From Bacteroidota bacterium (GTDB lineage Bacteria > Bacteroidota > Bacteroidia > Bacteroidales > Paludibacteraceae): a DNA stretch of 37,954 nucleotides. Below the pieces are notes generated by a model that had not been told where the DNA came from, searched no databases, and saw nothing but the letters and a program-made list of their open reading frames with translations. The translations under genes were made by a program, and so were the position numbers. Location of the stretch: NCBI GenBank assembly GCA_017860295.1, contig JAFNAS010000022.1, forward strand, positions 1 through 37,954, read 5' to 3'. Below, in pieces: positions 267 to 32,844 of the stretch. How positions within the stretch are numbered: the first letter of the stretch is position 1; the number at the start of each line of letters is the position of its first letter.

Positions 267-2033
267 ATGTCAGAAACAACAAAGAAATCTCCCTGGACCT
301 GGATTCCAACGCTCTATTTTGCCGAAGGGATTCCGTATGTGGTGGCCATGTCACTGGTGGTAGTGATGTATAAACGGTTGGGTATTTCCAATGCCGATAT
401 TGCTTTGTACACCAGTTGGCTCTATTTGCCCTGGGTAATAAAACCGTTTTGGAGTCCCTTTGTGGATATGATGAAGACCAAACGCTGGTGGATCGTGACC
501 ATGCAGCTGTTTATAGGTGCCGGTTTGGCCGGCGTGGCTTTTCTTATTCCGGCTCCCTTCTTTTTTCAGGCAACGCTGGCCGTGCTGTGGTTGATGGCGT
601 TCAGTTCGGCTACGCATGATATTGCGGCCGATGGCTTTTATATGTTGGCGCTCGATAGTTCGCAGCAGTCGTTCTTTGTGGGGATCCGCAGTACGTTTTA
701 TCGACTGGCGATGATTACCGGACAGGGACTGCTGATTATTCTGGCCGGAAGCTTGGAGAGTTTTACTGGCTTGCAACCGCTAAATTTTTCGGTTGAATCG
801 TCAACTACGGCTAAGTCGACAATAGTATTGCCCGCACAAACTAGCAATGTGCCCAAGACGGACGAAATGACTTTTGTGGCATTTCCATCCGATTTGGTGC
901 TGAATACAAATCAGATTTTGAAAGATTCGCTGGAAAAAGTAAAATCATTTGCCTTCGAACAAAACAAACAAAATGGTTTTGTGGGCAGCGAGAAAGCAGG
1001 TGTTGCAGTGACTTCATCAAAAGAAATGACCGGTAATGCCGGCATTGTGGCCATTCGCCTGACGAAACAGCCTGAGGCCGGTAAATCGGTGGTGTTGAAC
1101 ACCAACTTTTCGAAAGGAGATAAAAGTATTTCGGTGATTTCGGGCGAGCGGATTACCTTCACTGCCGAAAACTGGAATAAACCGGCTTATGTGGTGGTTC
1201 AACTCGATAAAAAGCTGAATGGTAATGTGAGAAGCGAATTTAAAGGAGTCTCCGGCAATTTGAAATTGGCATGGAGTATTACCTTCTTTATTCTGGCAGG
1301 TTTCTTTGTCCTCTTGTTTGTCTACCATCGTTTTGTGTTGCCGTATCCGGCTTCCGATCATTCGACGGTGGCAAATAGTGTAAGTGGTATATTCAAGGAG
1401 TTCGGGCGCACGTTTGCCACTTTTTTCCAGAAGCCAGGCATTGTGCTGGCAATCTTTTTTATGCTGACTTACCGCTTGGGTGAGGCCATGCTGGTGAAGA
1501 TCGTGTCGCCCTTCCTGCTCGACGGACGTGAAGTGGGCGGACTTGGACTGACAACCGGACAGGTTGGATTGGTTTACGGCACCGTTGGGGTGTTGGCTCT
1601 AACTTTGGGTGGCATCACCGGTGGCATTGCGGCATCACGCAAAGGGCTCAAATACTGGATTTGGCCTATGGCAATGTCGATAACCTTGCCGCAGTGTGCC
1701 TACATCTTCTTGTCGACATTCCTGCCAGATAATTTTTTCTTTATCAATCTGGCAGTTGCCGTTGAACAATTCGGATATGGATTCGGCTTTACAGCCTATA
1801 TGTTGTATATGATCTATTTTTCCGATGGCGAGCATAAAACGGCGCATTATGCTATCTGTACCGCCTTTATGGCATTGGGAATGATGTTGCCCGGGATGAT
1901 GGCCGGATGGTTGCAAGAACAACTCGGATATCAGCACTACTTTTTCACAGTGATGTTGGCTATTATACCCTGTTATCTGGTAGTTTCGATGTTGAAAATA
2001 GATCCCGAATTCGGGAAGAAAAAGAAAGCTTAA
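267..2033 (+). CDS. AmpG-like MFS muropeptide permease with extracytoplasmic insert
   Basis: This is a major facilitator superfamily inner-membrane transporter of 588 residues. The N-terminus (WTWIPTLYFAEGIPYVVAMS, then KPFWSPFVD) resembles AmpG-type permeases, which import GlcNAc-anhydroMurNAc(-peptides) by proton symport. A TTG twelve bases upstream also fits the frame, but the ATG at 267 is preferred. Hydrophobic helices occupy about residues 15-165 and 335-580. Between them lies a soluble insert of about 165 residues (169-333), unusual for this family, which includes FTAENWN at 298-304, a signature seen in Calx-beta-like extracellular repeats. The gene is followed closely by a NamZ-family gene and the acetyltransferase, apparently as one operon. 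The AmpG assignment rests on N-terminal motifs and murein context; another sugar or peptide substrate is possible. Confidence 0.8.
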   Translation: MSETTKKSPWTWIPTLYFAEGIPYVVAMSLVVVMYKRLGISNADIALYTSWLYLPWVIKPFWSPFVDMMKTKRWWIVTMQLFIGAGLAGVAFLIPAPFFFQATLAVLWLMAFSSATHDIAADGFYMLALDSSQQSFFVGIRSTFYRLAMITGQGLLIILAGSLESFTGLQPLNFSVESSTTAKSTIVLPAQTSNVPKTDEMTFVAFPSDLVLNTNQILKDSLEKVKSFAFEQNKQNGFVGSEKAGVAVTSSKEMTGNAGIVAIRLTKQPEAGKSVVLNTNFSKGDKSISVISGERITFTAENWNKPAYVVVQLDKKLNGNVRSEFKGVSGNLKLAWSITFFILAGFFVLLFVYHRFVLPYPASDHSTVANSVSGIFKEFGRTFATFFQKPGIVLAIFFMLTYRLGEAMLVKIVSPFLLDGREVGGLGLTTGQVGLVYGTVGVLALTLGGITGGIAASRKGLKYWIWPMAMSITLPQCAYIFLSTFLPDNFFFINLAVAVEQFGYGFGFTAYMLYMIYFSDGEHKTAHYAICTAFMALGMMLPGMMAGWLQEQLGYQHYFFTVMLAIIPCYLVVSMLKIDPEFGKKKKA

Positions 2034-2056
2034 CCGTTTTTACCTAGGTCAATGTG

Positions 2057-3295
2057 ATGATGATGAAATTGAATGTGATTTGGTTGATGACCGCTTTGCT
2101 GTGTCTGTCCCAGAACGGAATGGGTGCGCAAAGGGTAAAAACGGGTATTGAAGTACTTCGCGAGAGTGGATTTAAGTTGCTTCAGGGAAAACGCGTGGGA
2201 TTGATAACCAATCCTACCGGAGTCGATTCGCAGTTGAAATCGACGGTGGATATTATGAACGAAGCTCCCGGAGTAAAACTGGTTGCGTTGTATGGTCCCG
2301 AGCATGGTGTTCGTGGAGATGTGTATGCAGGCGATCATGTGGATAATGCTGCGGATCGGACAGGAGTGCCTGTCTATTCGCTTTATGGAAAAACAAGGAA
2401 ACCGACACCCGATATGCTGAGAGATGTTGATGTGATTGTGTATGATATTCAGGACATCGGGTGTCGTTCCTATACGTTTATCAGTACCATGGGATTGGCC
2501 ATGCAGGCGGCTGCCGAAAACGGCAAAGAGTTTGTGGTGCTCGATCGTCCGAATCCTATTGGTGGATTGAAAATAGAGGGAAACCTGACGGAAGATAAGT
2601 TTATCTCGTTTGTCAGTCAGTTCAAAATACCGTATCTCTACGGGCTTACCTGCGGTGAACTGGCCAAATTGCTGAACAACGAAAATATGTTGGGTAAAAA
2701 GTGCAAGTTGACGGTTGTCCCGATGAAAGGGTGGAAGCGCAAGATGAATTTTTCGCAAACCGGGTTGCCCTGGGTACTGACGTCTCCGCATATCCCCTAT
2801 GCCGAATCGGCAGCTTATTATGCGGCATCGGGAATTCTCGGCGAATTCGATTTCATGTCGATTGGCGTAGGGTATACGTTGCCATTCCAACTGTTTGCTA
2901 AAGATTCGATCGATGCAACTTTGTTGTCTGAAAAAATGAATGCTTTGCAATTGCCCGGTGTGTTATTTCGACCAATTAACCTGAAGCCGTTTTATTCGGT
3001 GGGTAAGGGATTAAACTATTCGGGCGTTCAATATTTTATTACCGATGACAAAAAAGCGAGGCTTACGGAGATTCAGTTTTATGTGATGCAGGAGATGGCA
3101 AAACTTTATCCGCAAAAGCGATGTTTCGGAGAGACAACGCAGTCTCGATATAAAATGTTTGATAATGTGTGCGGTAGTGATCAGATACGACTGCGTTTTT
3201 CTCAGAGTATGAGGGTTGATGATATTCTTCCTTATTGGAGAAAAGATGAGGATGCCTTCCGAAAATTGTCAAAGAAATATTATCTCTATAAATAA
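2057..3295 (+). CDS. NamZ-family (DUF1343) exo-beta-N-acetylmuramidase, divergent copy
   Basis: This is a DUF1343 protein of the family containing B. subtilis NamZ (YbbC), which removes MurNAc from the non-reducing end of murein glycan. Supporting motifs are GLITNPTGVD, LYGPEHGVRGD (Glu82 from the ATG at 2057 is the putative catalytic acid by analogy), DVDVIVYDIQDIGCRSYTF and VVLDRPNPIGG. ATG codons at 2057, 2060 and 2063 and a GTG at 2054 are all possible starts. A signal peptide ends near NGMGA/Q, so the enzyme is exported. Unlike the second copy at 27276, it lacks the GRGTDxPFE segment and has GVGYTLPFQ there, so its sugar subsite may differ. It lies about 20 nt after the permease and 8 nt before the next gene. 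Confidence 0.85.
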   Translation: MMMKLNVIWLMTALLCLSQNGMGAQRVKTGIEVLRESGFKLLQGKRVGLITNPTGVDSQLKSTVDIMNEAPGVKLVALYGPEHGVRGDVYAGDHVDNAADRTGVPVYSLYGKTRKPTPDMLRDVDVIVYDIQDIGCRSYTFISTMGLAMQAAAENGKEFVVLDRPNPIGGLKIEGNLTEDKFISFVSQFKIPYLYGLTCGELAKLLNNENMLGKKCKLTVVPMKGWKRKMNFSQTGLPWVLTSPHIPYAESAAYYAASGILGEFDFMSIGVGYTLPFQLFAKDSIDATLLSEKMNALQLPGVLFRPINLKPFYSVGKGLNYSGVQYFITDDKKARLTEIQFYVMQEMAKLYPQKRCFGETTQSRYKMFDNVCGSDQIRLRFSQSMRVDDILPYWRKDEDAFRKLSKKYYLYK

Positions 3296-3303
3296 CGCTT
3301 CCT

Positions 3304-4482
3304 ATGCAGGTAACAAACCGACTTTTGGCACTCGACGTGATGAGAGGCATCACTATTGCTGGGATGATTCTAGTGAATAACCCCGGTTCATGGGGGCACA
3401 TCTTTACTCCTCTGGAACATGCTTCGTGGAACGGTTTGACTCCGACCGATCTGGTATTCCCATTCTTTATGTTTATTATGGGAGTGTCGACCTATTTCTC
3501 ATTGCGAAAATACGATTTCAGATTTTCGTCCGATGCTGTCTGGAAAATATTGCGGCGCACCCTAGTGATTTTCGGGATCGGATTGGCTATCGGTTGGTTC
3601 GGCTTGCTTTGTCGGACTACGTTGAATTTCGGAAACACGGAGATGACCTTTTCTGAAAGGTTGATGCACGGACTGATGCCGTTTGATAAAATCAGGGCGC
3701 TTGGCGTGATGCAGCGTCTGGCTTTGAGTTATTGCGGAGCATCGTTGTTGATATTGCTGATCGATCAGAAGAAAGTGTTGTATGTGGCCGGCGGAATTTT
3801 AATTGCTTATCTGGTAGTTTTACTGGTAGGAAACGGATTCGATTTGTCTGAAAATAATGTGATTAATGTCGTCGACCGGGCATTATTCGGTGTCAACCAT
3901 ATATATAAAGATGTATTACCCGATGGCTCATCCATCGCTTTCGATCCGGAAGGATTGTTAAGCACGCTTCCCTGTCTGGCGCATGTCTTGCTTGGATTTT
4001 ATGTGGGAAAAATTATCAATTCGGTGCAGGACAATGGACAACGCATACAACAGATCTTTATTTTCGGCACCATTCTTTTGTTTGCTGGATTCCTGTTGAG
4101 CTATGGCTGTCCGATCAACAAGAAAGTGTGGAGCCCTTCGTTTGTGATGGTCACTTGTGGATTGGGTTCGTTGCTACTTTCATTACTGATTTGGTTGATC
4201 GATATTAAGGGGTATGCCCGTTGGTCGCATTTCTTCGAATCGTTCGGCATTAATCCGCTCTTTATGTATGTACTGGGAGCTTTCCTGTCTATTTTGTTGA
4301 GTACCATACCCGTATCGCTAAGCCCGGAAGTGCTAACCATAAAGGGATTTGTTTATAACGATTTACTCTTGTCCTGGCTTCCTGACTTATGGGCTTCGCT
4401 GGTATACGCTATTCTCTTTGTTTTGCTTAATTGGTCTATTGGACACATTCTTTATAGAAAGCAGCTTTATATTAAAATCTGA
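3304..4482 (+). CDS. HGSNAT/NagX-like transmembrane glucosamine N-acetyltransferase
   Basis: This is a multi-pass membrane protein of 392 residues. Its N-terminus has the hallmarks of the heparan-alpha-glucosaminide N-acetyltransferase family (DUF5009/YeiB-related): LDVMRGITIAGMILVN, then EHASWNGLTPTDLVFPFF. The His in HASWNG (His39) matches a motif also present in human HGSNAT, which moves acetyl groups from cytosolic acetyl-CoA to a terminal glucosamine on the far side of the membrane. About ten hydrophobic segments follow. The gene starts 8 nt after the NamZ-family gene, so they are probably translated from one message. Inferred role: N-acetylation of glucosamine residues from murein in the periplasm, making them substrates for enzymes that need the acetamido group. 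Acetylation of another sugar cannot be excluded. Confidence 0.8.
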   Translation: MQVTNRLLALDVMRGITIAGMILVNNPGSWGHIFTPLEHASWNGLTPTDLVFPFFMFIMGVSTYFSLRKYDFRFSSDAVWKILRRTLVIFGIGLAIGWFGLLCRTTLNFGNTEMTFSERLMHGLMPFDKIRALGVMQRLALSYCGASLLILLIDQKKVLYVAGGILIAYLVVLLVGNGFDLSENNVINVVDRALFGVNHIYKDVLPDGSSIAFDPEGLLSTLPCLAHVLLGFYVGKIINSVQDNGQRIQQIFIFGTILLFAGFLLSYGCPINKKVWSPSFVMVTCGLGSLLLSLLIWLIDIKGYARWSHFFESFGINPLFMYVLGAFLSILLSTIPVSLSPEVLTIKGFVYNDLLLSWLPDLWASLVYAILFVLLNWSIGHILYRKQLYIKI

Positions 4483-4930
4483 TATGTGAGACAATTGATG
4501 CACCTCTTATACTTTAAAAGTATTTACGCTCAAAAATGTAGATAAAAAAATGTATGTAAATCATAAAAACAAGTTTTGGTGTTGTATCTCTGTAAAATTA
4601 GTGTATATTTGTAATTGATATGTGTCCAAGTTTGTGTATTACTTGTTTTTGTATTATTGATGTCGCTAAATGATTCTTTATTATTGCAGTAATTAATTGA
4701 AAATTGATTTTTGATGTCTTTTTGTCAGAATTATTTGTTGCGATAGATTCAAATTCCACTTTGTTTAGGTGCGAAAAGCGAGGTTCAAAGAGAGATTAAA
4801 ATCTATAAACTACCAGCTTAATTATATTCTCTTGAAATTTAGATGTTAAATTTTTAATAATAAGGAGTGGTTTTATATCGCTCAGTCTCATCTTTAAAAA
4901 TAGTTGTTAATATTCAAAACCCCAAAAATT
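4483..4930 (+). promoter_or_regulatory. Intergenic region with likely promoter of the susCD block
   Basis: These 448 bases hold no convincing gene. TATATTTG at 4604-4611 exactly fits the Bacteroidota -7 consensus TAnnTTTG. TTG at 4582-4584 lies 19 nt upstream, where the -33 element belongs. Transcription would start near 4617, giving a leader of about 310 nt before the SusC start. The region is very A+T-rich. No ECF sigma, anti-sigma or hybrid two-component gene lies nearby to explain regulation. Confidence 0.6.
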
Positions 4931-7900
4931 ATGACTAAGATGTTTAAGCAAAGATGGTTTTATTTGGGTTGTTGTTTGCTGATCGCATTGTTCACTGTAG
5001 TGGGCGCTTATGCACAGACAAAAACAATCAAGGGAAAGGTGGTTGATGAAAAAAGTCAACCTATGATTGGCGTTTCTGTTGTTATTAAGGGAACTAAAAC
5101 AGGAACAATTACGGATGAAGAAGGAAGTTATTCTATTTCGGCATCTCCGAAAGATGTGTTGTCGTTTTCATTTATTGGATACAAAGCTAGCGAAGAGAAG
5201 ATAGGTTCTCGTACAACAGTAAATGTAGCTCTTAATGAAGATTCTCAAATGTTGCAAGAAGCAGTTATTACAGCAGAATTCGGAGTGAAAAGAGCAGCAC
5301 GTTCGGTTGGAGCGGCTATTCAAAATGTCAAAGGTTCGGATATTGCCGAGTCTGGGCGTGAAAATTTTATCGATGCTCTTCAGGGACGTGTCGCAGGTGT
5401 AAATGTTACTTCATCATCCGGATCTCCGGGAGCTTCTTCAACAGTCGTATTCAGAGCTCCTACATCTATTTCGGGGAAAAATAGTCCATTATACGTAATA
5501 GATGGTATTCCGATGAGTAATACTACATTTGATGCAACTACTCAAGCTGCATCCACAACTTTGAGTGCTACACAGAATGATTATACTAATCGTGGTTCTG
5601 ATATAGATGCTGATAATATTGAAAGTATGACAGTTTTAAAAGGTGCGGCAGCTGCGGCTCTTTACGGATCCGATGCTTCTAATGGAGCTATTATTATTAC
5701 TACAAAAAAAGGACGCTCAGGAAAGGCTAAGATTTCTTATAACACCGATATTAGGTTTGATCAAGTATACCGTTATCCCAAAGAACAGACGACTTATGAT
5801 CAAGGAACTTATGGGACAACCAATTACTACAGCTCAGTACGGTGGGGGGCTCCATACGCTGCTGGGACCAAGTTGTACGATAATGTGAAAGAATTATTAA
5901 AAACAGGTGTTAGTCAAAAACACAATGTCGCTCTTGAGGCAGGAAATGAAACAATGACATTACGCGCTTCGGCGGGATTGTTAGATCAGACGGGTGTTAT
6001 ACCGGTGGCGTCTTATAAGCGTAAAAATCTTGCTTTGTCAGGATCAATGAAGGCTAATAACTGGCTGAGTTTTGATGGATCTCTACAATATGTAAACAGT
6101 GAGAACCATAAAGTCGCTAAAGGTGTTGGTGGTGTTTTGGATTTGGCATTGAAATGGCCTTCAACTGATAATATGAAAAACTATTTGGCTGCAGACGGTA
6201 GTTCAATAAAATATCCTGATAAATATGGTGATACTGATATTTTGAACCCTTATTATGACCTTTATAAAGATAAAAGATATGATACGAGTGACCGGTTTAT
6301 CTCAGCATTAAACATGATTATTACACCGTTGAAAGATTTGCAGGTTAGAGCGCAATTTGGATGGGATGTTTCTGCAAGTACCTATATTACGTGTATCAAT
6401 CCTCAGTTTACAACATCAACAACCAAAGCCGGAAGTTATGACCAATCTAACGTTGCGGAATCGGATCCCACACTCAATCTATTGGCGTCGTATAAAAAAA
6501 GTATTAAGAAATTTGATTTCAATGCCCAAGTAGGATACCACCAATTAGAAGTAGGATCAAAGACGCTTGCTGTATATGGTTCGAATTTTTATGTGCAAGA
6601 TTTACAGTCTATTAATAATTGTGCTCAATCAACTATAACCAATACGCAGATAACGAAAAAGCGCAGAGTTCAGGCTGTCTCAGGTTCATTGGAGATGTCT
6701 TATAATAATATGGCATTCTTGACATTAAGAGGTAGGAATGACTGGTCGTCTACTTTGCCAGTAGATAATCAATCTTATTTTTATCCTGCTGCTGATGTGA
6801 GTTTCATGTTGTCTGAATTACCATTTCTTAAAAAGCATTCTGAAACTTGGAGCTATCTAAAATTACGGGGATCTGCGGCTCAAGTAGGTAAAGATGCAGA
6901 TCCGCTCTCTATTAAGCCTGCGTTACAATTGCAGACAACTACTGGAGCCGGATATGCTTATGGGTATACGGGTCCGAACAATCAGTTGAAGCCTGAAATG
7001 AATACGGCATGGGAAGTTGGGGTAGAAGGCCGTATGTTTGATAATCGGTTGAATTTTGATGTGTCTTATTATGATACACATTCGAAGGATCAGATTATTT
7101 CTGGTTTTCGTATGTCCTATGCAACTGGATTTGTCCTGAATACAAGAAATATGGGGTCGTTCAAGACTAATGGTACTGAATTCTTAGTGTCATATGATTT
7201 TATCAGGAATCATGATTGGTCATTGAATGTTGGAGTAAATGGAAGTCGAAATTGGAGTAAAGTGTTGTCATTGCCAAACGGCGTAACGGAATATTATAAT
7301 GCCTATACTTGGGTGTCGGGTAATATTCGAAATGGTATTATGGTTGGAAGTCCTATTACAACTATCACTGGCCTTGATTACCAACGAAATAAAAAGGGGC
7401 AGATTTTGATTGATCCGACCTCTGGACTTCCATTGATTAGTAGTACTTGGTCGGTATTGGGAGATAGAGAACCGAAACTATCTTATGGATTTACCGCTTT
7501 AGTGAAACATAAGAATTTTTCGTTGTCATGCCTGTTTAATGGAAAACTCGGAGCTACGATAGTAAATGGTACAAAACGCCTCATGATGACATATGGTACA
7601 AGCACAGAATCTGTGACGTTGAGAAATCGAGGAGCCGTTGTGTTTAATGGTGTTCTTAAGGATGGAAAGCAAGATAGTTCGACTCCAACGGTTAGTAATA
7701 TAGCAGTGAAATTAGCAGACTTGAACGGTTATACAGGATCGGATATCGAATGGATAGAAAAAGGTGTTAATTACCTTACTCTTTCTGAGGTACGGTTGTC
7801 TTATAATTTGGATGCAAAATTAATTGCAAAACTCACTAAAAATCTTGTATCTAAATGCTCAGTGTTTGTCGCAGGATCAGATATGTTTTTGTGGACAAAC

Positions 7901-8029
7901 TACTCTGGAATTGATCCTACGGGCAATGCTAATTCCGCTGCATTGGGAGGAACAGGCGGTGTCGGGTATGATATGTTAAGTATTGGGACTCCTAGAGGAT
8001 ATTCTTTCGGATTTAATATAACATTCTAA
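4931..8029 (+). CDS. SusC/RagA-family TonB-dependent outer-membrane transporter
   Basis: This is a SusC-type importer of 1032 residues. The ATG at 4931 is chosen over an upstream TTG at 4904 because it gives a clean signal peptide ending AYA/Q. A carboxypeptidase-regulatory-like domain follows (KTIKGKVVDEKSQPMIGVSV to about residue 105), then a plug domain (AARSVGAAIQNVKGSDI, GRVAGVNVTSSSGSPG, LYVIDGIPMS, MTVLKGAAAAALYGSDASNG) and a long beta-barrel ending in FGFNITF with terminal Phe. With SusD it forms the active uptake complex, energised by TonB. Context suggests murein fragments, either muropeptides or glycan strands, as cargo; the sequence alone does not show the ligand. The coding sequence is visibly A+T-rich compared with the enzyme genes downstream. 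Confidence 0.95.
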   Translation: MTKMFKQRWFYLGCCLLIALFTVVGAYAQTKTIKGKVVDEKSQPMIGVSVVIKGTKTGTITDEEGSYSISASPKDVLSFSFIGYKASEEKIGSRTTVNVALNEDSQMLQEAVITAEFGVKRAARSVGAAIQNVKGSDIAESGRENFIDALQGRVAGVNVTSSSGSPGASSTVVFRAPTSISGKNSPLYVIDGIPMSNTTFDATTQAASTTLSATQNDYTNRGSDIDADNIESMTVLKGAAAAALYGSDASNGAIIITTKKGRSGKAKISYNTDIRFDQVYRYPKEQTTYDQGTYGTTNYYSSVRWGAPYAAGTKLYDNVKELLKTGVSQKHNVALEAGNETMTLRASAGLLDQTGVIPVASYKRKNLALSGSMKANNWLSFDGSLQYVNSENHKVAKGVGGVLDLALKWPSTDNMKNYLAADGSSIKYPDKYGDTDILNPYYDLYKDKRYDTSDRFISALNMIITPLKDLQVRAQFGWDVSASTYITCINPQFTTSTTKAGSYDQSNVAESDPTLNLLASYKKSIKKFDFNAQVGYHQLEVGSKTLAVYGSNFYVQDLQSINNCAQSTITNTQITKKRRVQAVSGSLEMSYNNMAFLTLRGRNDWSSTLPVDNQSYFYPAADVSFMLSELPFLKKHSETWSYLKLRGSAAQVGKDADPLSIKPALQLQTTTGAGYAYGYTGPNNQLKPEMNTAWEVGVEGRMFDNRLNFDVSYYDTHSKDQIISGFRMSYATGFVLNTRNMGSFKTNGTEFLVSYDFIRNHDWSLNVGVNGSRNWSKVLSLPNGVTEYYNAYTWVSGNIRNGIMVGSPITTITGLDYQRNKKGQILIDPTSGLPLISSTWSVLGDREPKLSYGFTALVKHKNFSLSCLFNGKLGATIVNGTKRLMMTYGTSTESVTLRNRGAVVFNGVLKDGKQDSSTPTVSNIAVKLADLNGYTGSDIEWIEKGVNYLTLSEVRLSYNLDAKLIAKLTKNLVSKCSVFVAGSDMFLWTNYSGIDPTGNANSAALGGTGGVGYDMLSIGTPRGYSFGFNITF

Positions 8030-10794: not shown

Positions 10795-10822
10795 AGCATT
10801 TAATTAATAATTGTTTGGTAAA

Positions 10823-15060: not shown

Positions 15061-15182
15061 AGAATTGAAACTCTGTTAATGTTTGAATATCTTCGAGGTG
15101 AGTAATATATAAATTCCTATTTTTGCTTTGTCAAGGGAAACGTATTGGTTCCGGTCATTTATTTGTAAATTGCTGTATTCTT

Positions 15183-16670: not shown

Positions 16671-16702
16671 TGATTTGATTATTTTAGGCGATATTATTGA
16701 CA

Positions 16703-19242: not shown

Positions 19243-19270
19243 GTAGAGATGCGGCATGCTACGTCTCTAC
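19243..19270. repeat. 28-nt near-palindrome between GH9 and NlpC/P60 genes
   Basis: GTAGAGATGCGG and TACGTCTCTAC form the arms of a hairpin centred on GCATGC, with mismatches that are G-U compatible. It begins 5 nt after the GH9 stop. An ATG inside it (19249) is in frame with the next gene but is unlikely to be a real start. There is no following U tract, so it is a dispersed palindromic repeat or a processing site rather than a standard terminator. Confidence 0.65.
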
Positions 19271-19290
19271 CGAAAAATATAAAAAACGCG

Positions 19291-21585: not shown

Positions 21586-21615
21586 CCCTTTCTCTTGGAG
21601 AGGTGTTGGAGAAGT
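21586..21615 (-). repeat. G+C-rich repeat, diverged copy E (inverted relative to D)
   Basis: Read on the minus strand it gives CTTCTCCAACACCTCTCC then AAGAGAAAGGGGA, matching copy D. D and E therefore flank the short gap between the epimerase and amidase genes as an inverted pair, as A and C do around the symporter-GH9 border. Confidence 0.55.
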
Positions 21616-21634
21616 GGTCAAAACTATAAAAATA

Positions 21635-24752: not shown

Positions 24753-24844
24753 TAATATATAAGTCAAAGCACTACTTAGATATAAGTCTAAAGTATATTT
24801 AGATATAAGTCTAGATTGTGTTTAGATGTACATCAAAATGGAAA
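24753..24844. repeat. Four 23-bp direct repeats in the intergenic region
   Basis: Units start at 24753, 24776, 24799 and 24822. The two central units share TTAGATATAAGTCTA exactly, and the outer two are diverged (TAATATATAAGTCAA and TTAGATGTACATCAA). Each core is nearly palindromic (TAGA...TCTA), and 23 bp is close to two helical turns, so the copies would face the same side of the DNA. They lie 68 nt after the amidase and 290 nt before the next gene. A binding site for a dimeric regulator is possible; a decayed repeat is the alternative. The rest of 24686-25133 (448 bases) shows no gene and no clear promoter. Confidence 0.75.
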
Positions 24845-25133
24845 TAGTTGCTTATCGGTTGAAACATACTACTGTATGTAATTGGAATTATATGCGGATA
24901 AAGTAAAAGCCGGATATGGTAGCTTTTGCTTTCCGGTGAGGTTGTAGCAATGCTGTTATCGGTTTGGCATTTATTGAGAGGGAAGCGTTATTTCTTGTTA
25001 TATTATGGCGTAAATAGTTAGCGAGCGTTAGAATTTTCGGAAGGAGATTATTTCTTATCTATCTTTACCCGACGTTATTACCATCTGTTATGGTTACTTG
25101 TTGAATTGGATATTTGGATAAAAATTGAAACCA

Positions 25134-27257
25134 ATGAAAATGAAAATGTTTGTTTTCCAGACTATTGCTTTCTTTGTCTCGGTAAGCGCATTCGCTCAGT
25201 TTGGGCATGCAACGTATTTTGACAAAGTGATATTGCAGACCGAAAATGCGGGCTTTTCTACTGAAAAAGATACGGTTAATGTACAGGGACGAAATTCTCT
25301 CTATTTTCAGTATACAAAGGATAACGAAATCTGTAATGTAAAGGTCTTTCCTTCGGTTGGGTACAAGTTAAAGCGATTGGCGCTTGCCGAATCGGCAGAT
25401 TATAATTTGTTGGATTCGGTGGTCGATTACAATGGCCAGTATTACACGTTTACGGTGCAGTTTCGGCACTTGTCGGCCAGCTCTTTTGTGCGTTTTCGCT
25501 TTATCCTCAGTTCGGACTCCGGCAGGGTGATTCAGGACGTTCCCCTATTGCCGGTTACAACTACTACTTTGGTGCCGGATGTTCCGGAACCGGAGCTGAC
25601 CGTCGGCGAAGAGAAGGTTTGCGAGTTGATCTCCAATCATCCTGAGAATATCCGATTTGATCCCAATTGGCAGAAAGAGCAGGATGTAGAATACCGTATT
25701 GCCGAGCTGAACGGAAAATTGTTTCTTCACTTGCTGGCTCATGCGGTTGGGTCGAAAACGCTTGCCATTCAACTCGGAACCTTTGTTCCTCAATTTGTGA
25801 ATGGAAAGTTGTCGTATACTCTACCGGTCATAAGTCAGACACTTACAGTGAAGAAAGCTCCGCTGGCCGTGCTGAAGCCCGATAAAAACGATTTTATTCT
25901 GGACGATGACCTGAAGAATAAAGGAACCGAAATTTATCTCGACAATGCGAAAAACCTGCAATTGAACAATACGTATCTGGTCGAATCAAAAGAGGCGGTT
26001 GGGTCGCCCCTGATTGCGCAAATCTTTACGAAAGAGCGTTTGTCGAATAACCGAATCTTGTGTTTGTTGAGAGCTTATAACTATCATACGACGTCGCAGG
26101 GATACCTTTATGTTAAGGATAACGATGTGGCACGATTTGTGACCAATTTCAACATTATTCCCCAAATCGCCATTGAGCACATCCGTGTGATGCGTAACGG
26201 CAAGGATTGGCAGGACGAAGCAACAATCTATCCGGGAGAAACCGTTGATGTTAAGCTGGAAGGAAAAAGCCTTGACAAAGGGCGGTTTCGTTTCGACGGA
26301 GTGGCAAATCTGAGCGTCGATTCGGTAACCCATAGCGATCATTCGCTGGAGTATAAACTGAAAGTGCCTCTCGATATCTCGAAGAAAACGGTGGAGATAT
26401 ACAATGGAGGAACTAAAACCGGCAGCGTACTGAATGTGAAGGAGTATGCGAAGGCGCATCCGTTCGACTATATTTCCATCAATTATGGCGCCGGGAATAA
26501 ACGTTTGTCGGACATACATGGGCCTGAGTTGTACGATAAACTGATAAAGGATGTCGTTATCTCCTTCCAACCCGATAAGATCGATTCGGTCGGTAGCCTC
26601 TTCGGAAAGCAATATCTGACGGTGGAAGTAAAGATACTGGGGAAAAAGGACGAGATTGTCGATCAGGTTACGATAGATGACATTGCCATCTGTCCCGGTG
26701 CAAAATCGCCGCGATATACATTTTATGATAAGGCGGATTGCAAAAATTCGGAAATAAGTGTCAATTCGAAGATCTCGAATACAACCTATAACTTGAGTGA
26801 CTGGTCGAAAATAAAACTGACATTTAAAAACCAGAAAGACAAATATTCGCAAGAGACACAGGAAAAAACGGTAGAGATTGTTCTTCAAAGGCATACTGAT
26901 TTTGATATCAATGTCTCCTTTCCAACCGGCTTGCTGGTAAAGAAAATGAATACCAAAGGACTGGGAAATTTCGGAGGCGTCAGCATGTCTGTTCTCGGTG
27001 AATTCAGTTTCTACAAACAGGGTAAAATCAATAAATTGCAGCCGTTTAAGATCGGAGCCGGCTTTTTGGCACTGAATACATTCGATTTCAGTAGCGATAA
27101 CTCCTCGAGAGATCTGGGTGCTGTGGTGTTAGGAACTTTGAGCCCGATCAATACGGATCGGAAATTTACGTTTTCAATTTACTTGGGCGGAGGGTATCTA
27201 TTCTCAGCAAAAACAATGTTTTGGTTGATTGGACCGGGTATCTCCGTTCAATTTTAG
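25134..27257 (+). CDS. Unrecognised exported protein, probable outer-membrane beta-barrel at the C-terminus
   Basis: I do not recognise a family. ATG codons at 25134, 25140 and 25146 are possible starts (707, 705 or 703 residues). A signal peptide ends SAFA/Q. Residues about 25-590 are rich in beta-type sequence with several Ig-like stretches, few cysteines and no catalytic motif. The final 110 residues alternate polar and hydrophobic positions and end in GPGISVQF, with a C-terminal Phe typical of outer-membrane barrels; phrases such as FKIGAGFLALNTFDF and FSIYLGGGYLF look like transmembrane strands. It sits between the amidase and the second NamZ-family gene and ends 18 nt before the latter, so it probably belongs to the murein operon, perhaps as a binding or anchoring protein. 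Confidence 0.7.
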   Translation: MKMKMFVFQTIAFFVSVSAFAQFGHATYFDKVILQTENAGFSTEKDTVNVQGRNSLYFQYTKDNEICNVKVFPSVGYKLKRLALAESADYNLLDSVVDYNGQYYTFTVQFRHLSASSFVRFRFILSSDSGRVIQDVPLLPVTTTTLVPDVPEPELTVGEEKVCELISNHPENIRFDPNWQKEQDVEYRIAELNGKLFLHLLAHAVGSKTLAIQLGTFVPQFVNGKLSYTLPVISQTLTVKKAPLAVLKPDKNDFILDDDLKNKGTEIYLDNAKNLQLNNTYLVESKEAVGSPLIAQIFTKERLSNNRILCLLRAYNYHTTSQGYLYVKDNDVARFVTNFNIIPQIAIEHIRVMRNGKDWQDEATIYPGETVDVKLEGKSLDKGRFRFDGVANLSVDSVTHSDHSLEYKLKVPLDISKKTVEIYNGGTKTGSVLNVKEYAKAHPFDYISINYGAGNKRLSDIHGPELYDKLIKDVVISFQPDKIDSVGSLFGKQYLTVEVKILGKKDEIVDQVTIDDIAICPGAKSPRYTFYDKADCKNSEISVNSKISNTTYNLSDWSKIKLTFKNQKDKYSQETQEKTVEIVLQRHTDFDINVSFPTGLLVKKMNTKGLGNFGGVSMSVLGEFSFYKQGKINKLQPFKIGAGFLALNTFDFSSDNSSRDLGAVVLGTLSPINTDRKFTFSIYLGGGYLFSAKTMFWLIGPGISVQF

Positions 27258-27275
27258 ACGAAAGATTATTTACAA

Positions 27276-28454
27276 ATGAAAAAAATTAGTATTGTATTGT
27301 TGCTGATTTGCAGTTGCTTGTCGATTGCTGTCGCAGAAAACAAGGCAAAGGTTCAGCCTGGTGCCGAAAGTGTGGATGAATATTTACCCTTGCTCAAAGG
27401 AAAACGGGTGGGGGTGCTCTCCAACCAGACCGGTGTCATCGGTAAAGAGCATATTGTCGATTTTCTCCACCGTCAGGGAGTAAATGTCGTTTGCATCTTT
27501 TCGCCGGAGCATGGTTTTCGGGGAATGGCCGATGCAGGCGAACATGTCTCCAGTTCGGTGGATCAGAAGACGGGCATTCCCATTAAATCGCTCTATGACG
27601 GCAATACCGGCAAGCCGAGCGATGCGGTGATGCAGTCGATCGATGTGTTGGTGTTCGACTTGCAGGATGTGGGCTTGCGGTTCTATACTTATCTTACAAC
27701 AATGGTGCGTATGATGGATGCCTGTGCCGCCAATCACGTCAAAATGGTTGTGCTCGACCGGCCCAATCCGAACGGACATTATGTCGACGGTCCAATTCTC
27801 GATCTGAAATACCGGTCGTCTGTGGGCTGGGTTCCGGTTCCGGTGGTGCACGGCATGACGCTGGGCGAACTGGCCGGAATGGTCAATGGAGAAAAATGGC
27901 TGACGAACGGTGCGCAATGCGATTTGAAAGTGGTTAAATGTAAAAACTATACACACGCAACGCTTTACAAACTACCCATCGCTCCATCACCCAATCTGAA
28001 GGATATGCGAGCCGTATATCTTTATCCGTCGCTGTGTTACTTTGAGGCAACCCCGGTCAGTCTGGGCCGTGGCACCGATGCTCCTTTCGAACAATACGGG
28101 CATCCCGATATGAAAGGCTACGCTTATAGTTTTACGCCACGGAGCATGTCCGGAGCCAAAACGCCACCACAGCTCGATAAATTGTGTTACGGTGTCGACC
28201 TGCGGACAAAACCTTCCAATGCGGAAGTGTTCAAAAGCGGAGTCAATCTGAGTTATCTGATTGATGCTTATTCGAATTTAAAAATGGGAGATGCCTTTTT
28301 TACCAAATCGTTTGAGAGACTGATTGGAGTCGATTACGTACGCAAGATGATAGAAGAGGGCAAGTCGGCTGCACAGATCAAAGCCTGCTGGAAAAATGAT
28401 GTGGAGAAGTTCAAGCAGCAACGCAAGTCCTATTTGCTCTATCCTGAAAAATAA
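27276..28454 (+). CDS. namZ: NamZ-family exo-beta-N-acetylmuramidase, canonical copy
   Basis: This second DUF1343 protein has 392 residues and a signal peptide ending AVA/E. It carries the full family signature: GVLSNQTGVIG, FSPEHGFRG (Glu78 the putative catalytic residue), GIPIKSLYDG, DVLVFDLQDVGLRFYTY, VVLDRPNPNGHYVDGP and FEATPVSLGRGTDAPFEQYG. It would release MurNAc from the non-reducing ends of glycan chains or from MurNAc-GlcNAc, in the periplasm or outside the cell. It is adjacent to the GH20 gene, which would remove GlcNAc from the same chain ends, so the two could work alternately. It shares only the core motifs with the copy at 2057, so the two are not a recent duplication. Confidence 0.9.
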   Translation: MKKISIVLLLICSCLSIAVAENKAKVQPGAESVDEYLPLLKGKRVGVLSNQTGVIGKEHIVDFLHRQGVNVVCIFSPEHGFRGMADAGEHVSSSVDQKTGIPIKSLYDGNTGKPSDAVMQSIDVLVFDLQDVGLRFYTYLTTMVRMMDACAANHVKMVVLDRPNPNGHYVDGPILDLKYRSSVGWVPVPVVHGMTLGELAGMVNGEKWLTNGAQCDLKVVKCKNYTHATLYKLPIAPSPNLKDMRAVYLYPSLCYFEATPVSLGRGTDAPFEQYGHPDMKGYAYSFTPRSMSGAKTPPQLDKLCYGVDLRTKPSNAEVFKSGVNLSYLIDAYSNLKMGDAFFTKSFERLIGVDYVRKMIEEGKSAAQIKACWKNDVEKFKQQRKSYLLYPEK

Positions 28455-28494: not shown

Positions 28495-31005
28495 ATGAAA
28501 AAGATTTTGTCAACCATTGTTGTCGCTTCCCTTTGTGGAATTATGTCCGCTCAATCGTATAATCTGATTCCCCGTCCTGTTGAAGTGACTCCGTCGCAGG
28601 GATCTTTTTCGCTGACTTCGGTTACACCGATTGTTGTCGGAAGAGAGGGTAAACAGGTAGCGCTTTACTTGCAACAAAAACTGAGTCGTCCGATGGGAGT
28701 ATCTCTAAAGATAGTCTCATCTCCGGTTACATCTCCTGCTGTCGAACTGAGCGTGAATGCCTCTCTCGATTTGCCTGCCGAAGGCTATCTGTTGTCGGTT
28801 GGTGATAAAGGTGTGAAAATTGAAGGAAAAGATTCCGACGGGTTGTTTTATGGAGTACAAACGTTGTTGCAACTTCTGCCTTCGCAGGTGTATGCTTCAC
28901 AACTTCAGAATGGCGTTCAATGGACTGTGCCTGCTGTGACGATCAAAGATTATCCCCGTTTTCATTACCGGGGCATGATGCTTGATGTGGTACGTCAATT
29001 CTTTGATGAACAAACGGTGAAGAGCTACATCGACTGGCTGGCGATGCACAAAATCAATAAATTTCACTGGCACCTGACCGATGATCAGGGTTGGCGCATC
29101 GAGATAAAGAAATATCCGAAATTGACCTCCGTTGCCGCTTGGCGTGGGCCGAACGAAGCGATTGCTCCTACCCTCGGTTCGGGCGATAAGCGTTACGGTG
29201 GCTTCTATACGCAGAAACAGATTAAAGAGATCGTCCGCTATGCTGCCGAGCGTCACATTGAGGTGATTCCCGAAATCGATCTGCCGGGGCATAGCTATGC
29301 TGCGGGGGCTGCTTATCCCGGAATTTTGTGTCCTACCAGTCGTGTGGAAGAATCGAAGCGTCCTGCCGGCGATAAAGCCGATGTCTGGTGTGTGGGCAAC
29401 GAGGCTAATTTTACTATGCTTACCAACATCCTGAAGGAGGTTGCAGTATTGTTCCCTTCGAAAATGATTCATATTGGTGGTGATGAGGTGAACATGGCAA
29501 TCTGGCCCCGTTGCCCCATCTGTTCGGCTTTTATGAAGAAAGAACATATGCAGAAGCCCGAAGAGCTGCAGAACTATTTTGTTCACCGACTGGGCACTAT
29601 TGTGCATCATTTGGGTAAGCGGATGGCCGGTTGGGACGAAATCCTGGAAGGTGGTGATTTGGATGCCTCCACGCAGGTATATGCCTGGCGTTCGTTGAAA
29701 CGGGCGGAGGAATCGACCGAAAAAGGGGTTCCTACGGTCATCATGGTGGGCCAAAATTACTATTTTGATATGGCGCAGTCGAAATATGAACGTGGGCATA
29801 ACTGGGCAGGATTGGTTTCTCTTGAAAAAGTTTATGCGCTCGATCCGACCGATCGGTCGATTTTTACTTCGAAACAATCAAAATTGGTGGTGGGCGTGCA
29901 GGGAGCAATTTGGTCCGAATTATTTAATGAACCGGCTCGTTTTCTCGATTATCAATCCTATCCACGTATTTGTGCTTTGGCCGAAGCCGGTTGGACCCCC
30001 CAATCGCAGCGCAACTGGAGTGATTTTTATCAACGCCTGACCGCTTCTCACTTTGATAGAATGTATAACATGGATATTGCATTTCGGGTACCACCTCCTG
30101 TTGTAACTTATAAAAGTAACGTGGTTACTGCAACGGCGCCTTATTCTGGGGCAGAAGTGCGCTACACCAATGATGGAAGCGAACCCAATGCGTCATCTCT
30201 GATTTATATGGCTCCGGTGCGGGAGTTTTATTATGAAAAGCTGAAGTTCAAAACGATTTATAAGACTCTTTCCAGCGTGGCGCTGTCGCCCGAATGCGTG
30301 AATGTTGGTGTCTGGAAAGCGGATACGGCAGTAAAACCAAAGGTGCAATCCTGGGATCTGACCGGGATTGTCGATCGACCGGGCATCTGGTATGCTACTT
30401 TTATCCCCGATCAGACGGCGAAAGGATCTGCATCAGTATCGCAGGTGAGGGTTTACGAGAATGATCTTGCAGTCTCTTCCGATGATAAGAATAGCTCCAC
30501 CGAGCGCACTCAGCGGTATCGTTTGCCTCTTTTTGCTTTCGATAAAGCGAAAAAGTACTTGTTGAAAGCCATTTTACAGGGAAAAGATTCGGTTACGGGT
30601 GTAGTGAAAATCGAATGTTCGCGCTACCTGGAGCCCGCTGTCGGGGTTTCTGTAAATGCCAACCTGAATTCGGAATATGCCCGTTATCTGACCGATTATG
30701 ACTTTGAAACTGTTGCTCGTACTATCGACCGGGGTGCTACCGGACAATCGATCACGTATGTTTTTGCTCAACCTCTTACTTGTTCAAAAATAACCTTTAA
30801 CACCGGGACATTGACTGCATTTTATCTGTTGAAAAACGGGCATGTGGAGTATTCCCCTGATGGAGCAAGGTGGATGCGTGGTGATAAGTTTGAAAAAGGA
30901 ACGGCTGTCCTTCGTCCGTCACAGCCTCTCAAGGCAGTAAAAATTGTGATTGATGGTCCGAATGATGAGGGAATTATTTCTTTTCAGGATTTACGAATCG
31001 AATAA
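28495..31005 (+). CDS. GH20 beta-N-acetylhexosaminidase
   Basis: This exported enzyme has 836 residues and a signal peptide ending MSA/Q. A GH20b domain at about 20-150 is followed by the catalytic barrel (FHYRGMMLDVVRQFF, FHWHLTDDQGWRIEIKKYP, and HIGGDEVN with the catalytic pair Asp330-Glu331). A chitobiase C-terminal-like segment (GAEVRYTNDGSEPNASS) and a beta-rich tail resembling a carbohydrate-binding F5/8-type domain complete it. The mechanism uses the substrate's own acetamido group, so it needs N-acetylated sugars. In this locus it would remove terminal GlcNAc from murein fragments after NamZ exposes it. Chitin or host glycan use is an alternative. It starts 40 nt after the NamZ gene and ends 12 nt before the next gene. 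Confidence 0.95.
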   Translation: MKKILSTIVVASLCGIMSAQSYNLIPRPVEVTPSQGSFSLTSVTPIVVGREGKQVALYLQQKLSRPMGVSLKIVSSPVTSPAVELSVNASLDLPAEGYLLSVGDKGVKIEGKDSDGLFYGVQTLLQLLPSQVYASQLQNGVQWTVPAVTIKDYPRFHYRGMMLDVVRQFFDEQTVKSYIDWLAMHKINKFHWHLTDDQGWRIEIKKYPKLTSVAAWRGPNEAIAPTLGSGDKRYGGFYTQKQIKEIVRYAAERHIEVIPEIDLPGHSYAAGAAYPGILCPTSRVEESKRPAGDKADVWCVGNEANFTMLTNILKEVAVLFPSKMIHIGGDEVNMAIWPRCPICSAFMKKEHMQKPEELQNYFVHRLGTIVHHLGKRMAGWDEILEGGDLDASTQVYAWRSLKRAEESTEKGVPTVIMVGQNYYFDMAQSKYERGHNWAGLVSLEKVYALDPTDRSIFTSKQSKLVVGVQGAIWSELFNEPARFLDYQSYPRICALAEAGWTPQSQRNWSDFYQRLTASHFDRMYNMDIAFRVPPPVVTYKSNVVTATAPYSGAEVRYTNDGSEPNASSLIYMAPVREFYYEKLKFKTIYKTLSSVALSPECVNVGVWKADTAVKPKVQSWDLTGIVDRPGIWYATFIPDQTAKGSASVSQVRVYENDLAVSSDDKNSSTERTQRYRLPLFAFDKAKKYLLKAILQGKDSVTGVVKIECSRYLEPAVGVSVNANLNSEYARYLTDYDFETVARTIDRGATGQSITYVFAQPLTCSKITFNTGTLTAFYLLKNGHVEYSPDGARWMRGDKFEKGTAVLRPSQPLKAVKIVIDGPNDEGIISFQDLRIE

Positions 31006-31011: not shown

Positions 31012-31017
31012 CTGACG

Positions 31018-32844
31018 ATGAGGTGGCTATTGATGAGTTGTGTGTTGATGCTAAGTTTGTTTCTGCCGGCTCAAACAAAGTTTGCATTGCTTACCGACTT
31101 GCATGTTTCTCCCGGTAATGCCAATGAACGGGCATTATCCGGAATTATCGATGAGATCAATGCATCCGATCTGCCTTTTGTAATTATTACCGGTGATATC
31201 ACCAATCAGGGGAGTAATGCCGAATTGTCCAATGTGAAAAGGCAGTTCGGTCGTTTTCGTAAACCTTATTATCTGATTCCCGGCAATCACGAAACCACTT
31301 GGTCGCAGAGTGCGGTCCGCGAATATTATCGCCTTTTCGGTTCCGACAGGTTCTTCTTTAAACAAGATAATCTTCTTTTTGTTGGCTATAATACCGGTCC
31401 CTATATGAAGATGGGTGACGGACATGTGAAGCACGAAGATTTGCTTTGGCTCGATTCCATTCTTACCAAAGAGTCGATAAAAGGTACCCGCTTGTTGGCG
31501 TTTGCGCATTATCCGTTGGTTGAAAACGATATGGGTAATGCACAGGAAGTGGTTGCCATGCTGAAAAAACACGATGCGATCGTTTCGTTTTGCGGTCACG
31601 GTCACGCTTACAAAGAGATGGCGTTTGGCAGTCTTAAGGGCATCATGGCTCGTTCCACTTTCTTCGGTCAGGATACCTTGTCTGCCGGATATACGGTTGT
31701 CCAATTGACCCCGGATTCTGTCTTTGTCAACGAGAAGAAACTGGGCGATGGTCTGAATCGTCGTTTTGCATTCTCGATAGATGCAAGTAGTAAAATGAAG
31801 GAACCGCAATATCCGATTGTGAAGCTGCGATTTCCGGAGCCGATGTCCGTCTCTCTAATTTATCAGGATAAAGCCTCTGTTTTTACCGGCATTTCCATCG
31901 ATGATAATGCGCTTTATTTTGGTAATTCTCTGGGAGATATTGAGGCAATATCGAAGAAAGGGGCAGGCTTGTTGTGGAGTTTTCCTACCGGTTATTCTCT
32001 CTATTCTTCTCCTGTTTGTTCCGGTGGTAAAGTGATTTTTCCGGCAACCGATGGCGTGGTTTATGCTTTGGCGGCTCAAAACGGAAAACAGTTGTGGAGT
32101 GTGAAAACCGATAATCCTTTTGTGGCGGATGGTCGAGTGTCTGGAGGAAAACTATATCAGGGAGGTTACAAAGCTTTCTACTGCATCGATGTTGTTTCGG
32201 GCAAAGTCGATTGGAAGTTTACGGATATCGACAACTACTGTCAGGCACGACCTGCAATTGCCGACGGTAAAGTATTGTTCGGTGCCTGGGATACCAACCT
32301 CTATTGCCTTGATCAGCAAACCGGCACTTTGATCTGGAAATGGAATAACGGGAAGGCTCAGAATCTTTATTCTCCGGCCAATTGTGTACCTGCTGTGCAC
32401 GACGGTAAGGTAATCGTTGTGGCTCCCGATCGTTGCATGACCGCTCTCGATCTCTCTACAGGCAGGCTGTTGTGGCGGAGCAATCAGTATCAGGTGCGTG
32501 AGTCGCAGGGCATTTCGGACGACGGGAAAGCGGTTTATGCCAAATTGATGGATGGGCAGTTGCTGGCTGTTTCAGCCGAAAGCCCGGAATACAAACCTCT
32601 CTGGACGGTAGATGTCGGTCTGGGCTACGAACATGCACCTTGTCCGATACTCGAACAAAACGGGACAGTTTATCTCGGTTCCCGCAACGGCGTTGTGGTG
32701 GCTGTCGATGCAGTGTCACACAAGGTTTTATGGTCGTTTAAAGGGGGTAATTCCGAAGTCAATCAGTTTAGTGCCGATACTCAAGGAAATGTTTATTTCT
32801 CGTTGATTGAGGGCAAAATATATAAGATAGGGGCAAAAAAATAA
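31018..32844 (+). CDS. Metallophosphoesterase fused to a PQQ-type beta-propeller
   Basis: This exported protein has 608 residues and a signal peptide ending PAQ. Residues about 20-270 form a calcineurin-like phosphoesterase with the metal motifs DLH, ITGDIT, IPGNHE, FAHYP and CGHGH. Residues about 280-608 form a PQQ/BamB-like propeller (repeats such as GKVIFPATDGVVYALAAQNGKQLW and GKVLFGAWDTNLYCLDQQTGTLIW). The phosphoesterase could remove phosphate from a cell-wall component, and the propeller may be a binding platform; neither substrate is known from sequence. It is tightly coupled to the GH20 gene and is the last gene of the plus-strand cluster, closed by the hairpin at 32841. Confidence 0.85.
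   Translation: MRWLLMSCVLMLSLFLPAQTKFALLTDLHVSPGNANERALSGIIDEINASDLPFVIITGDITNQGSNAELSNVKRQFGRFRKPYYLIPGNHETTWSQSAVREYYRLFGSDRFFFKQDNLLFVGYNTGPYMKMGDGHVKHEDLLWLDSILTKESIKGTRLLAFAHYPLVENDMGNAQEVVAMLKKHDAIVSFCGHGHAYKEMAFGSLKGIMARSTFFGQDTLSAGYTVVQLTPDSVFVNEKKLGDGLNRRFAFSIDASSKMKEPQYPIVKLRFPEPMSVSLIYQDKASVFTGISIDDNALYFGNSLGDIEAISKKGAGLLWSFPTGYSLYSSPVCSGGKVIFPATDGVVYALAAQNGKQLWSVKTDNPFVADGRVSGGKLYQGGYKAFYCIDVVSGKVDWKFTDIDNYCQARPAIADGKVLFGAWDTNLYCLDQQTGTLIWKWNNGKAQNLYSPANCVPAVHDGKVIVVAPDRCMTALDLSTGRLLWRSNQYQVRESQGISDDGKAVYAKLMDGQLLAVSAESPEYKPLWTVDVGLGYEHAPCPILEQNGTVYLGSRNGVVVAVDAVSHKVLWSFKGGNSEVNQFSADTQGNVYFSLIEGKIYKIGAKK

Follow-up and report, generated by a model that had tools for sequence, protein, structure and literature searches.

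A probable peptidoglycan-utilization locus in a Paludibacteraceae bacterium joins a muropeptide-salvage operon to a SusCD-led block

What does a SusC/SusD pair import when it lies among genes for the breakdown of bacterial cell walls? This question is raised by a 37,954-nucleotide stretch of DNA (the window), which is contig C17 (JAFNAS010000022.1) of the 3.39-Mb genome, in 25 contigs, of a Bacteroidota bacterium of the family Paludibacteraceae (GCA_017860295.1). Peptidoglycan of dead cells is a large pool of carbon and nitrogen in anaerobic sediments and guts, and a preliminary description of the window had proposed a single SusCD-based locus that takes murein fragments apart outside the cytoplasm. 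Our analysis predicts that the window very probably holds a peptidoglycan-utilization locus whose SusCD proteins import wall fragments. The locus consists of two joined blocks, a Bacteroidales muropeptide-salvage operon (block A) and a block led by SusCD (block B). In the window it comprises 17 co-directional genes on the plus strand, from 255 (a TTG start; Met at 267) to 32844:

255 to 2033, plus strand: AmpG-like muropeptide permease (TIGR00901, E 7.6e-48, under the curated cutoff)
2054 to 3295, plus strand: NamZ1, exo-beta-N-acetylmuramidase family GH171, exported (PF07075, 4.5e-84; PF20732, 1.7e-34)
3304 to 4482, plus strand: membrane protein of the MurT/NagX/HGSNAT family (NF046061 NagX, E 6.2e-35, under the cutoff; HGSNAT structures, E 1.1e-20)
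4904 to 8029, plus strand: SusC, type I (Pfam TonB barrel, plug and carboxypeptidase-regulatory domains; tree)
8042 to 9847, plus strand: SusD-like_2 surface lipoprotein (PF12771, 2.4e-36)
9863 to 10714, plus strand: lipoprotein LP283, 283 aa (no Pfam match; travels with type I SusCD)
10811 to 12679, plus strand: serine beta-lactamase-fold enzyme, AmiE-like amidase candidate (PF00144, 6.8e-41; motifs SVTK and YSD)
12679 to 15060, plus strand: GH3 (Pfam; motif KHWPGGGSGEGGRDAHW)
15123 to 16670, plus strand: SSF sodium:solute symporter (PF00474, 6.5e-17; 80-97% in six congeners)
16697 to 19237, plus strand: GH9 with a C-terminal NodB-like domain (Pfam GH9 and Polysacc_deac_1; first motif TGHE)
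19249 to 20247, plus strand: NlpC/P60 endopeptidase of the YkfC/dipeptidyl-peptidase VI type, exported (PF00877, 4.2e-24; 3npf, E 6e-74)
20346 to 21485, plus strand: YkfB-type L-Ala-D/L-Glu epimerase with a Tat-type signal (3iji, E 1.1e-147; mandelate-racemase family)
21614 to 24685, plus strand: zinc N-acetylmuramoyl-L-alanine amidase fold with Golvesin_C insert, fn3 and a C-terminal domain (predicted structure)
25125 to 27257, plus strand: U710, exported, 710 aa, no family (no Pfam match at 0.001, no NCBIfam match at 0.01)
27276 to 28454, plus strand: NamZ2, exported (PF07075, 3.1e-76; NamZ_C, 6.9e-32; 4jja, 565 bits)
28495 to 31005, plus strand: GH20 beta-N-acetylhexosaminidase, exported (PF00728, 2.1e-109)
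31018 to 32844, plus strand: calcineurin-like phosphoesterase with PQQ beta-propeller (Pfam; recurs beside salvage operons elsewhere)

Pfam and NCBIfam searches and gene calls bore out the gene families named previously: SusC/SusD, two NamZ proteins, GH20, NlpC/P60, a dipeptide epimerase, an AmpG-like permease and a sodium symporter are all present, as are two amidase candidates, one with an AmiE-like beta-lactamase fold (PF00144 and motifs) and one with a zinc amidase fold (predicted structure). The HGSNAT/MurT-like protein, LP283, U710 and the phosphoesterase/PQQ protein are additions to that description. Almost every soluble enzyme begins with a signal of the periplasmic kind, as had been claimed (export signals other than Tat were judged by eye). 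As in SusCD polysaccharide utilization loci in general, SusC (4904 to 8029) adjoins SusD (8042 to 9847) and exported hydrolases run in the same direction, the carbohydrate-active enzymes being GH171 (twice), GH3, GH9 and GH20. The locus differs from such loci in that its substrate would be a peptide-bearing wall polymer, in its peptidase, amidase and epimerase genes, and in that no dedicated regulator was found among the 19 window proteins searched, which also holds for some SusCD loci.

That the substrate is murein, used outside the cytoplasm, is supported by comparison with other loci. The locus L102 reads AmpG-SusC (69%)-SusD (71%)-lipoprotein (66%)-NlpC/P60-YkfB-GHL10 on one strand, with no other gene of our panel within its 21-kb stretch. 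A search of 393 Bacteroidales genomes with the window SusD (E 1e-25) gave four matches outside the genus. One of them (L258 in G344, from another family) was found by SusD alone and has the order NlpC/P60-YkfB-SusC (53%)-SusD (43%)-lipoprotein, with NamZ1 divergent; another (L259 in G287) reads phosphoesterase/PQQ-SusC-SusD-lipoprotein-beta-lactamase fold. These two matches are informative, and both have murein-type neighbours. The preliminary description had named SusCD orthologues beside enzymes for an unrelated polysaccharide as the contrary outcome; as far as this check was run, none appeared among the four matches.

The neighbourhood search for SusCD with NamZ and YkfB, also suggested previously, gave a similar result for a second SusD type (the linkage test covered types I and III of the three defined below). 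Using as query the type III SusD from the orthologous locus of G006, and scoring in most genomes no more than the top three candidates of a first look, we found 18 places in 15 of the 393 genomes; 14 of them lie within 15 kb of NamZ, GHL10 or YkfB, and nine within 10 kb. For NamZ alone, the count is 10 of 18 (7 of 15 without G183, G232 and G302) versus 0 of 26 unrelated SusD places (Fisher, 1.8e-5), a control that used another query and a start-to-start distance (17 kb) and omitted in-locus places and genomes with incomplete NamZ lists. When six NamZ stretches were lengthened, SusCD was also found in G183 and G232. In G183, which belongs to another family, a single run (L249, L202 and L250) holds SusC-SusD-GHL10-NamZ2-SSF-GT2-DUF4922-AmpG-NamZ1-MurT-kinase-MurQ-PQQ protein-GH9. 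We take GHL10 to be the family of E. coli DigH, and the GHL10 Pfam model does match in E. coli. DigH degrades denuded wall glycans (PMC12288456, the available text of which does not name the family).

Several observations weigh against peptidoglycan import. Only two type I matches outside the genus are informative: a third is a 5.7-kb contig (G384) with SusC, SusD, the lipoprotein and two unmatched genes only, too short to tell, and the fourth is a 3.9-kb contig (L257 in G399) identical over 2990 bp to the congener G003 (L022), although the two genomes are assigned to different families. Such identity points to contamination or the same population and not to an independent case, and the contig is probably misbinned (its genome is listed with 8% contamination). 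For type III SusD, four of the 18 places (G264, G404, G323 and G260) have no marker within 15 kb, and those in G183, G232 and G302 were known beforehand, leaving 11 of 15. We also surveyed the surroundings of NamZ at 60 places, each over 12-20 kb, in a sample of 295 Bacteroidales genomes. These neighbourhoods were picked from about 150 places listed, with preference for different families and multi-copy genomes, and are thus non-random; SusC was present in seven (up to 20 kb), including four of the 20 that hold AmpG. Among the best 80 of 248 YkfB loci, NlpC/P60 is found in 70 and a window-SusD-like gene in seven, once on the opposite strand. In addition, the window has no obvious surface endo-glycosidase, so the polymer must be cut by something else; the solved protein nearest to SusC, BT_2264, is part of a peptide-binding complex; and GH3, GH9 and GH20, to which relatives add GH18 or a GH2 exo-glucosaminidase, are compatible with chitin or chitosan as well.

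The last point can be extended to a reading in which block B serves for the use of chitin, chitosan or some other glycan of amino sugars, with the salvage operon as a mere neighbour, and in which GH20, GH9, the NodB-like domain and the NagX-like protein form a GlcNAc/GlcN pathway. GH18 occurs in G006 and G007, a GH2 exo-beta-glucosaminidase-type protein adjoins the G007 locus, and NagX is known from glucosamine use (PMC9007349, in its available text). However, block B itself contains NlpC/P60, the epimerase, both amidase candidates and the second NamZ; in L102 and L258, SusCD is accompanied by murein enzymes, with no GH18, GH20 or GH9 in the stretches examined; and comparison with stretches from six congeners, some of them in fragments, gave no match for GH3. 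We therefore regard an amino-sugar glycan as an unlikely target and retain murein as the preferred one.

How much of the locus is then specific to SusCD? AmpG, NamZ1 and the HGSNAT-like gene follow the ampG-namZ-murT order of Tannerella forsythia and of other families and are therefore read as a salvage operon. Consequently, the one SusCD locus proposed before holds for block B, while the first three genes represent a known Tannerella-type operon. The T. forsythia ampG-ybbC(namZ)-murT-murK-murQ operon has in common with block A the AmpG-NamZ-MurT order, a kinase, MurQ and GT genes (PMC5388701, PMC7670621); its nine genes named in the available text do not include SusCD, GH20, NlpC/P60 or an epimerase, and its "xanthan lyase" matches the Golvesin-insert amidase by position. 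NamZ is present in 275 of the 295 sampled genomes. Ten of the 60 neighbourhoods contain both HGSNAT and MurQ. The full order GT2-DUF4922-x-AmpG-NamZ1-HGSNAT-kinase-MurQ, which the T. forsythia operon also follows, is found in five (L190, L191, L198, L212 and L213) and variants in five more (L189, L194, L197, L201 and L202); the phosphoesterase/PQQ protein is found in eight of the 60.

In relatives, the HGSNAT-like gene is placed between NamZ1 and kinase-MurQ. The locus of the window extends upstream onto contig C9, whose end has an exact 95-bp overlap with the start of C17, inside a 21-bp tandem-repeat array. C9 carries two kinase candidates, MurQ, GT2 and a DUF4922 protein, as do G001, G003 and G006. 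MurQ (C9:118490, open frame of 292 aa) is above the TIGR00274 cutoff; the kinase candidates are assigned by position and not by comparison with the MurK sequence, one having a weak BadF match under the cutoff and the other no Pfam match. The 21-bp repeats at the contig break upstream of AmpG (window 15-233, L179 18076-18165) correspond to short gaps in G001, G003 and G006. In G007, the salvage and SusCD blocks lie on different contigs, and the stretches examined yielded no HGSNAT.

A salvage operon of this kind could also serve housekeeping, with own-wall recycling as its task and SusCD recapturing leaked fragments. Such a role would suit the wide occurrence of block A and of NamZ in Bacteroidales, and AmpG gives a single match in its own genome (E 1e-10). 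However, 16 of the 20 AmpG-NamZ neighbourhoods have no SusC in the stretch examined (up to 20 kb), meaning that a salvage operon needs no SusC close by; two NamZ proteins, GH20, GH9 and SSF seem beyond the needs of recycling; and, as described below, importer lineages vary while the enzymes stay. Recycling of the cell's own wall is thus quite improbable, and the use of imported fragments is preferred. T. forsythia is reported, in the available text, to have no MurA/MurB, whereas murA is present in the host here and is above cutoff in all eight genomes of the genus, which argues for a locus for food or recycling and not for auxotrophy.

Two further results concern the salvage genes. First, the histidine of acetyl transfer in HGSNAT (His39) is kept in 17 of 17 MurT-family rows, two of these rows being the gene of the window and a truncated duplicate of the G006 gene. 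This hints that the MurT-family proteins of salvage operons may carry out acetyl transfer instead of, or besides, transport, and it reopens the question of transporter versus acetyltransferase; the MurT identity of 3304 to 4482 is itself by position and not by comparison with the MurT sequence. Second, a divergent FAD/Fe-S oxidase gene, presumably of the D-lactate-dehydrogenase kind, lies beside the kinase candidates (L179 9043-11928, on C9; also L258 7-3039), and relatives with 45-65% identity adjoin SusCD or YkfB in G302, G232, G271 and G344. Since MurQ releases D-lactate, linkage of the oxidase to murein loci makes sense.

The importer behaves differently from the enzymes around it. The SusCD block was seen in seven of the eight genomes of the genus (in G004 on its own contig, which ends in SSF; the G002 contig is too short). 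Shared enzymes and transporters are 79-99% identical between the window and G001, G003 and G006, with the exception of AmpG in G001 (76%) and the split amidase in G006 (73%), whereas SusC identity to the same three genomes is 36, 72 and 35%, and SusD identity 24, 66 and 24%. In a tree of 42 SusC proteins, the locus SusCs fall into three well-supported lineages: lineage I (window, G003, L102, L258 and L259), lineage II (G001, G006, G004, G005, L142, L144 and L128) and lineage III (G001, G006, G007 twice, G183, G302 and G232). The two SusCs of G271 included as locus rows lie outside all three, one as a long branch beside lineage II and one among other SusCs. The tree rows were chosen for nearness to murein genes, and therefore their clustering alone proves little. 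By sequence comparison, the importer is exchangeable within the genus, with three SusC lineages at the same place between conserved enzymes. This pattern suggests that the substrate range is tuned through exchange of receptors and not through changes in the enzymes.

The third protein of the importer, LP283, has relatives in G003, L102 and L256 to L259 (where L257 duplicates G003), and both SusD and LP283 have lipobox-like cysteines. Sequence searches with LP283 gave chance-like matches only, and its predicted model resembles the extracellular domain of the mammalian peptide transporters PepT1/PepT2. We tentatively propose, with more doubt than confidence, that several Bacteroidales SusCD families are dedicated to peptidoglycan import and that in this genus they are exchangeable cassettes at one conserved locus, with LP283 as the stem-peptide binder of type I. 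If so, a cell could change the wall fragments it takes (crosslink type, amidation, O-acetylation) with its enzymes unchanged, and an importer swap could change which phage or bacteriocin uses the receptor, again with the enzymes untouched.

The importer might instead be a hitchhiker, namely a peptide importer of the BT_2261-2264 kind that was inserted in the locus and serves general peptides. The best solved relative of SusC is BT_2264 (5fq6_B, 327 bits; next 167), from the BT_2261-2264 complex (5fq6-5fq8), which is nearest yet far in sequence. A link of the window SusD to BT_2263 was not among the matches listed even with a six-sequence profile, which does not exclude such a link. The third-codon-position GC content (GC3) of SusC, SusD and LP283 is 0.28-0.31, compared with 0.44-0.58 in the rest of the window and 0.54 in a further SusC of this genome, which gives the cassette a foreign look. 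However, every locus SusC in the genus has a low value (0.27-0.38), and low GC3 may be a trait of such receptors. Moreover, an accidental insertion would not turn up again next to NlpC/P60-YkfB in a different family and next to AmpG in L102, as this cassette does, and the two readings overlap in that muropeptides are partly peptides. Accordingly, we give a general peptide importer only a small chance and keep to wall fragments as the cargo.

The enzymes of block B required several changes to earlier assignments. The gene at 21614 to 24685 lends itself to a xanthan-lyase-like reading, which we rejected in favour of a zinc amidase with an insert. Foldseek alone put xanthan lyase, Eph ectodomain and fn3 first, and a second aligner found the amidase domain; in the predicted model, an H-E-H zinc site and a catalytic Glu lie in an amidase fold, with the zinc site invariant. 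No Pfam Amidase_3 match was found at E 0.001; the domain is split by the Golvesin_C insert. These results suggest that the Tannerella operon, too, encodes a wall amidase, under the name xanthan lyase. For the AmiE-like candidate, a remnant of a NagZ-AmiE fusion at the N-terminus was considered and is not claimed, since a 933-aa relative (L245) has no GH3 domain (Pfam).

The GH3 gene is present as described before, but a NagZ reading of it is rejected because of its motif, KHWPGGGSGEGGRDAHW, together with the lack of a match in the congener stretches compared; we take this motif to be of the beta-glucosidase type, differing from that of NagZ. The GH9-deacetylase fared similarly: GH9 and the NodB-like domain are there, and de-N-acetylation is doubtful owing to the altered first NodB motif. 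The canonical motif, which we take to be TFDD, gives way to TGHE in the genus and L172, as seen in 12 gene copies that stand for 8 genes, a few of them listed with two locus ids. The pattern behind this search had been modelled on the motif in the window and overlooked four full-length GH9-NodB homologues, which on separate inspection have SAD followed by V, M or S at motif 1. NamZ_N and NamZ_C domains are found in both NamZ1 and NamZ2 (Pfam), for which muramidase activity is predicted.

The epimerase, an enolase-superfamily sequence, carries KVK at 192, D220 and E247, presumably the KxK and metal-ligand residues, and matches NCBIfam epimerase models under their cutoffs. Its TAT_signal scores 20.8 of 22.7 bits in Pfam, just under the cutoff, and 18.1 of 16.7 in NCBIfam, just over. 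The twin arginine is found in 76 of the 79 closest homologues examined (loci L097 to L176), and shorter forms without the signal exist; extracytoplasmic L-Ala-D-Glu epimerization may therefore be common in Bacteroidota and relatives. B. subtilis YkfB, by comparison, is cytoplasmic. The window locus would be expected to perform the same reactions as the B. subtilis NamZ-NagZ-AmiE and YkfB/YkfC systems; B. subtilis has no outer membrane, and the window locus has no NagZ-like GH3.

From the observed gene content, conservation, linkage and predicted folds, we infer the following activities, localisations and substrate. Soluble fragments of peptidoglycan would cross the outer membrane by way of SusCD acting with LP283. 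Once they are in the periplasm, stem peptides would be stripped off by the zinc amidase and the AmiE-like enzyme, NamZ1, NamZ2 and GH20 would release MurNAc and GlcNAc from chain ends, NlpC/P60 would free L-Ala-gamma-D-Glu, and the Tat-exported epimerase would convert it to L-Ala-L-Glu. AmpG, the SSF symporter and the MurT-family protein would act at the inner membrane, after which a kinase and MurQ would turn MurNAc into GlcNAc-6-P and D-lactate, which the FAD/Fe-S oxidase beside the kinases may oxidize.

The preliminary description knew of no complete SusCD locus with this gene set, but one of similar make-up has been published. A locus of about 27 kb in a Urechidicola mussel symbiont, likened here by description and not by sequence, holds SusCD pairs, MurQ, AmpG, an L-Ala-D/L-Glu epimerase, an amidase, a sodium co-transporter, GH3, GH10, GH18 and GH171 (PMC10199937). 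It differs in its two SusCD pairs, nagB, dacA and ampD, and in the available text its authors leave the substrate open and give no import test (PMC10199937). The concept has thus been published already, with no substrate named. In a partial survey of the literature, we found no tested SusCD murein importer; nor did we find a description of the two joined blocks, of importer exchange, of the compact L102 version, of the linkage analysis or of the unmasked amidase. The present locus names a candidate outer-membrane peptidoglycan importer, of which L102 offers a smaller, testable version. Novel Bacteroidetes are among the dominant bacteria in anaerobic peptidoglycan enrichments (PMC7511781, with no Paludibacter named in the available text).

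The locus had also been called an uninterrupted plus-strand run. As regards direction, this is correct. However, 421 bp lie between SusC and the gene ahead of it, and 439 bp between U710 and its predecessor, distances that would allow separate transcription units. A promoter scan gave seven promoter-like sites in the gap before SusC (3.7 in shuffles) and one in the gap before U710 (2.1 in shuffles), and a terminator scan of both gaps found none. A pattern that we take to be that of Bacteroidales-type promoters had one match versus 1.08 expected. The gap before U710 contains a 23-bp tandem repeat (3.1 copies, 24757-24827), and U710 itself was without a match in the same six-congener comparison as GH3. 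Beyond 32844, the minus strand carries a tRNA-Leu, a 6S-type RNA, an M6 peptidase and RecJ; the 6S-Bacteroidales RNA (RF01693, 104 bits) lies at 33030-33205 on the minus strand, adjoining the tRNA-Leu.

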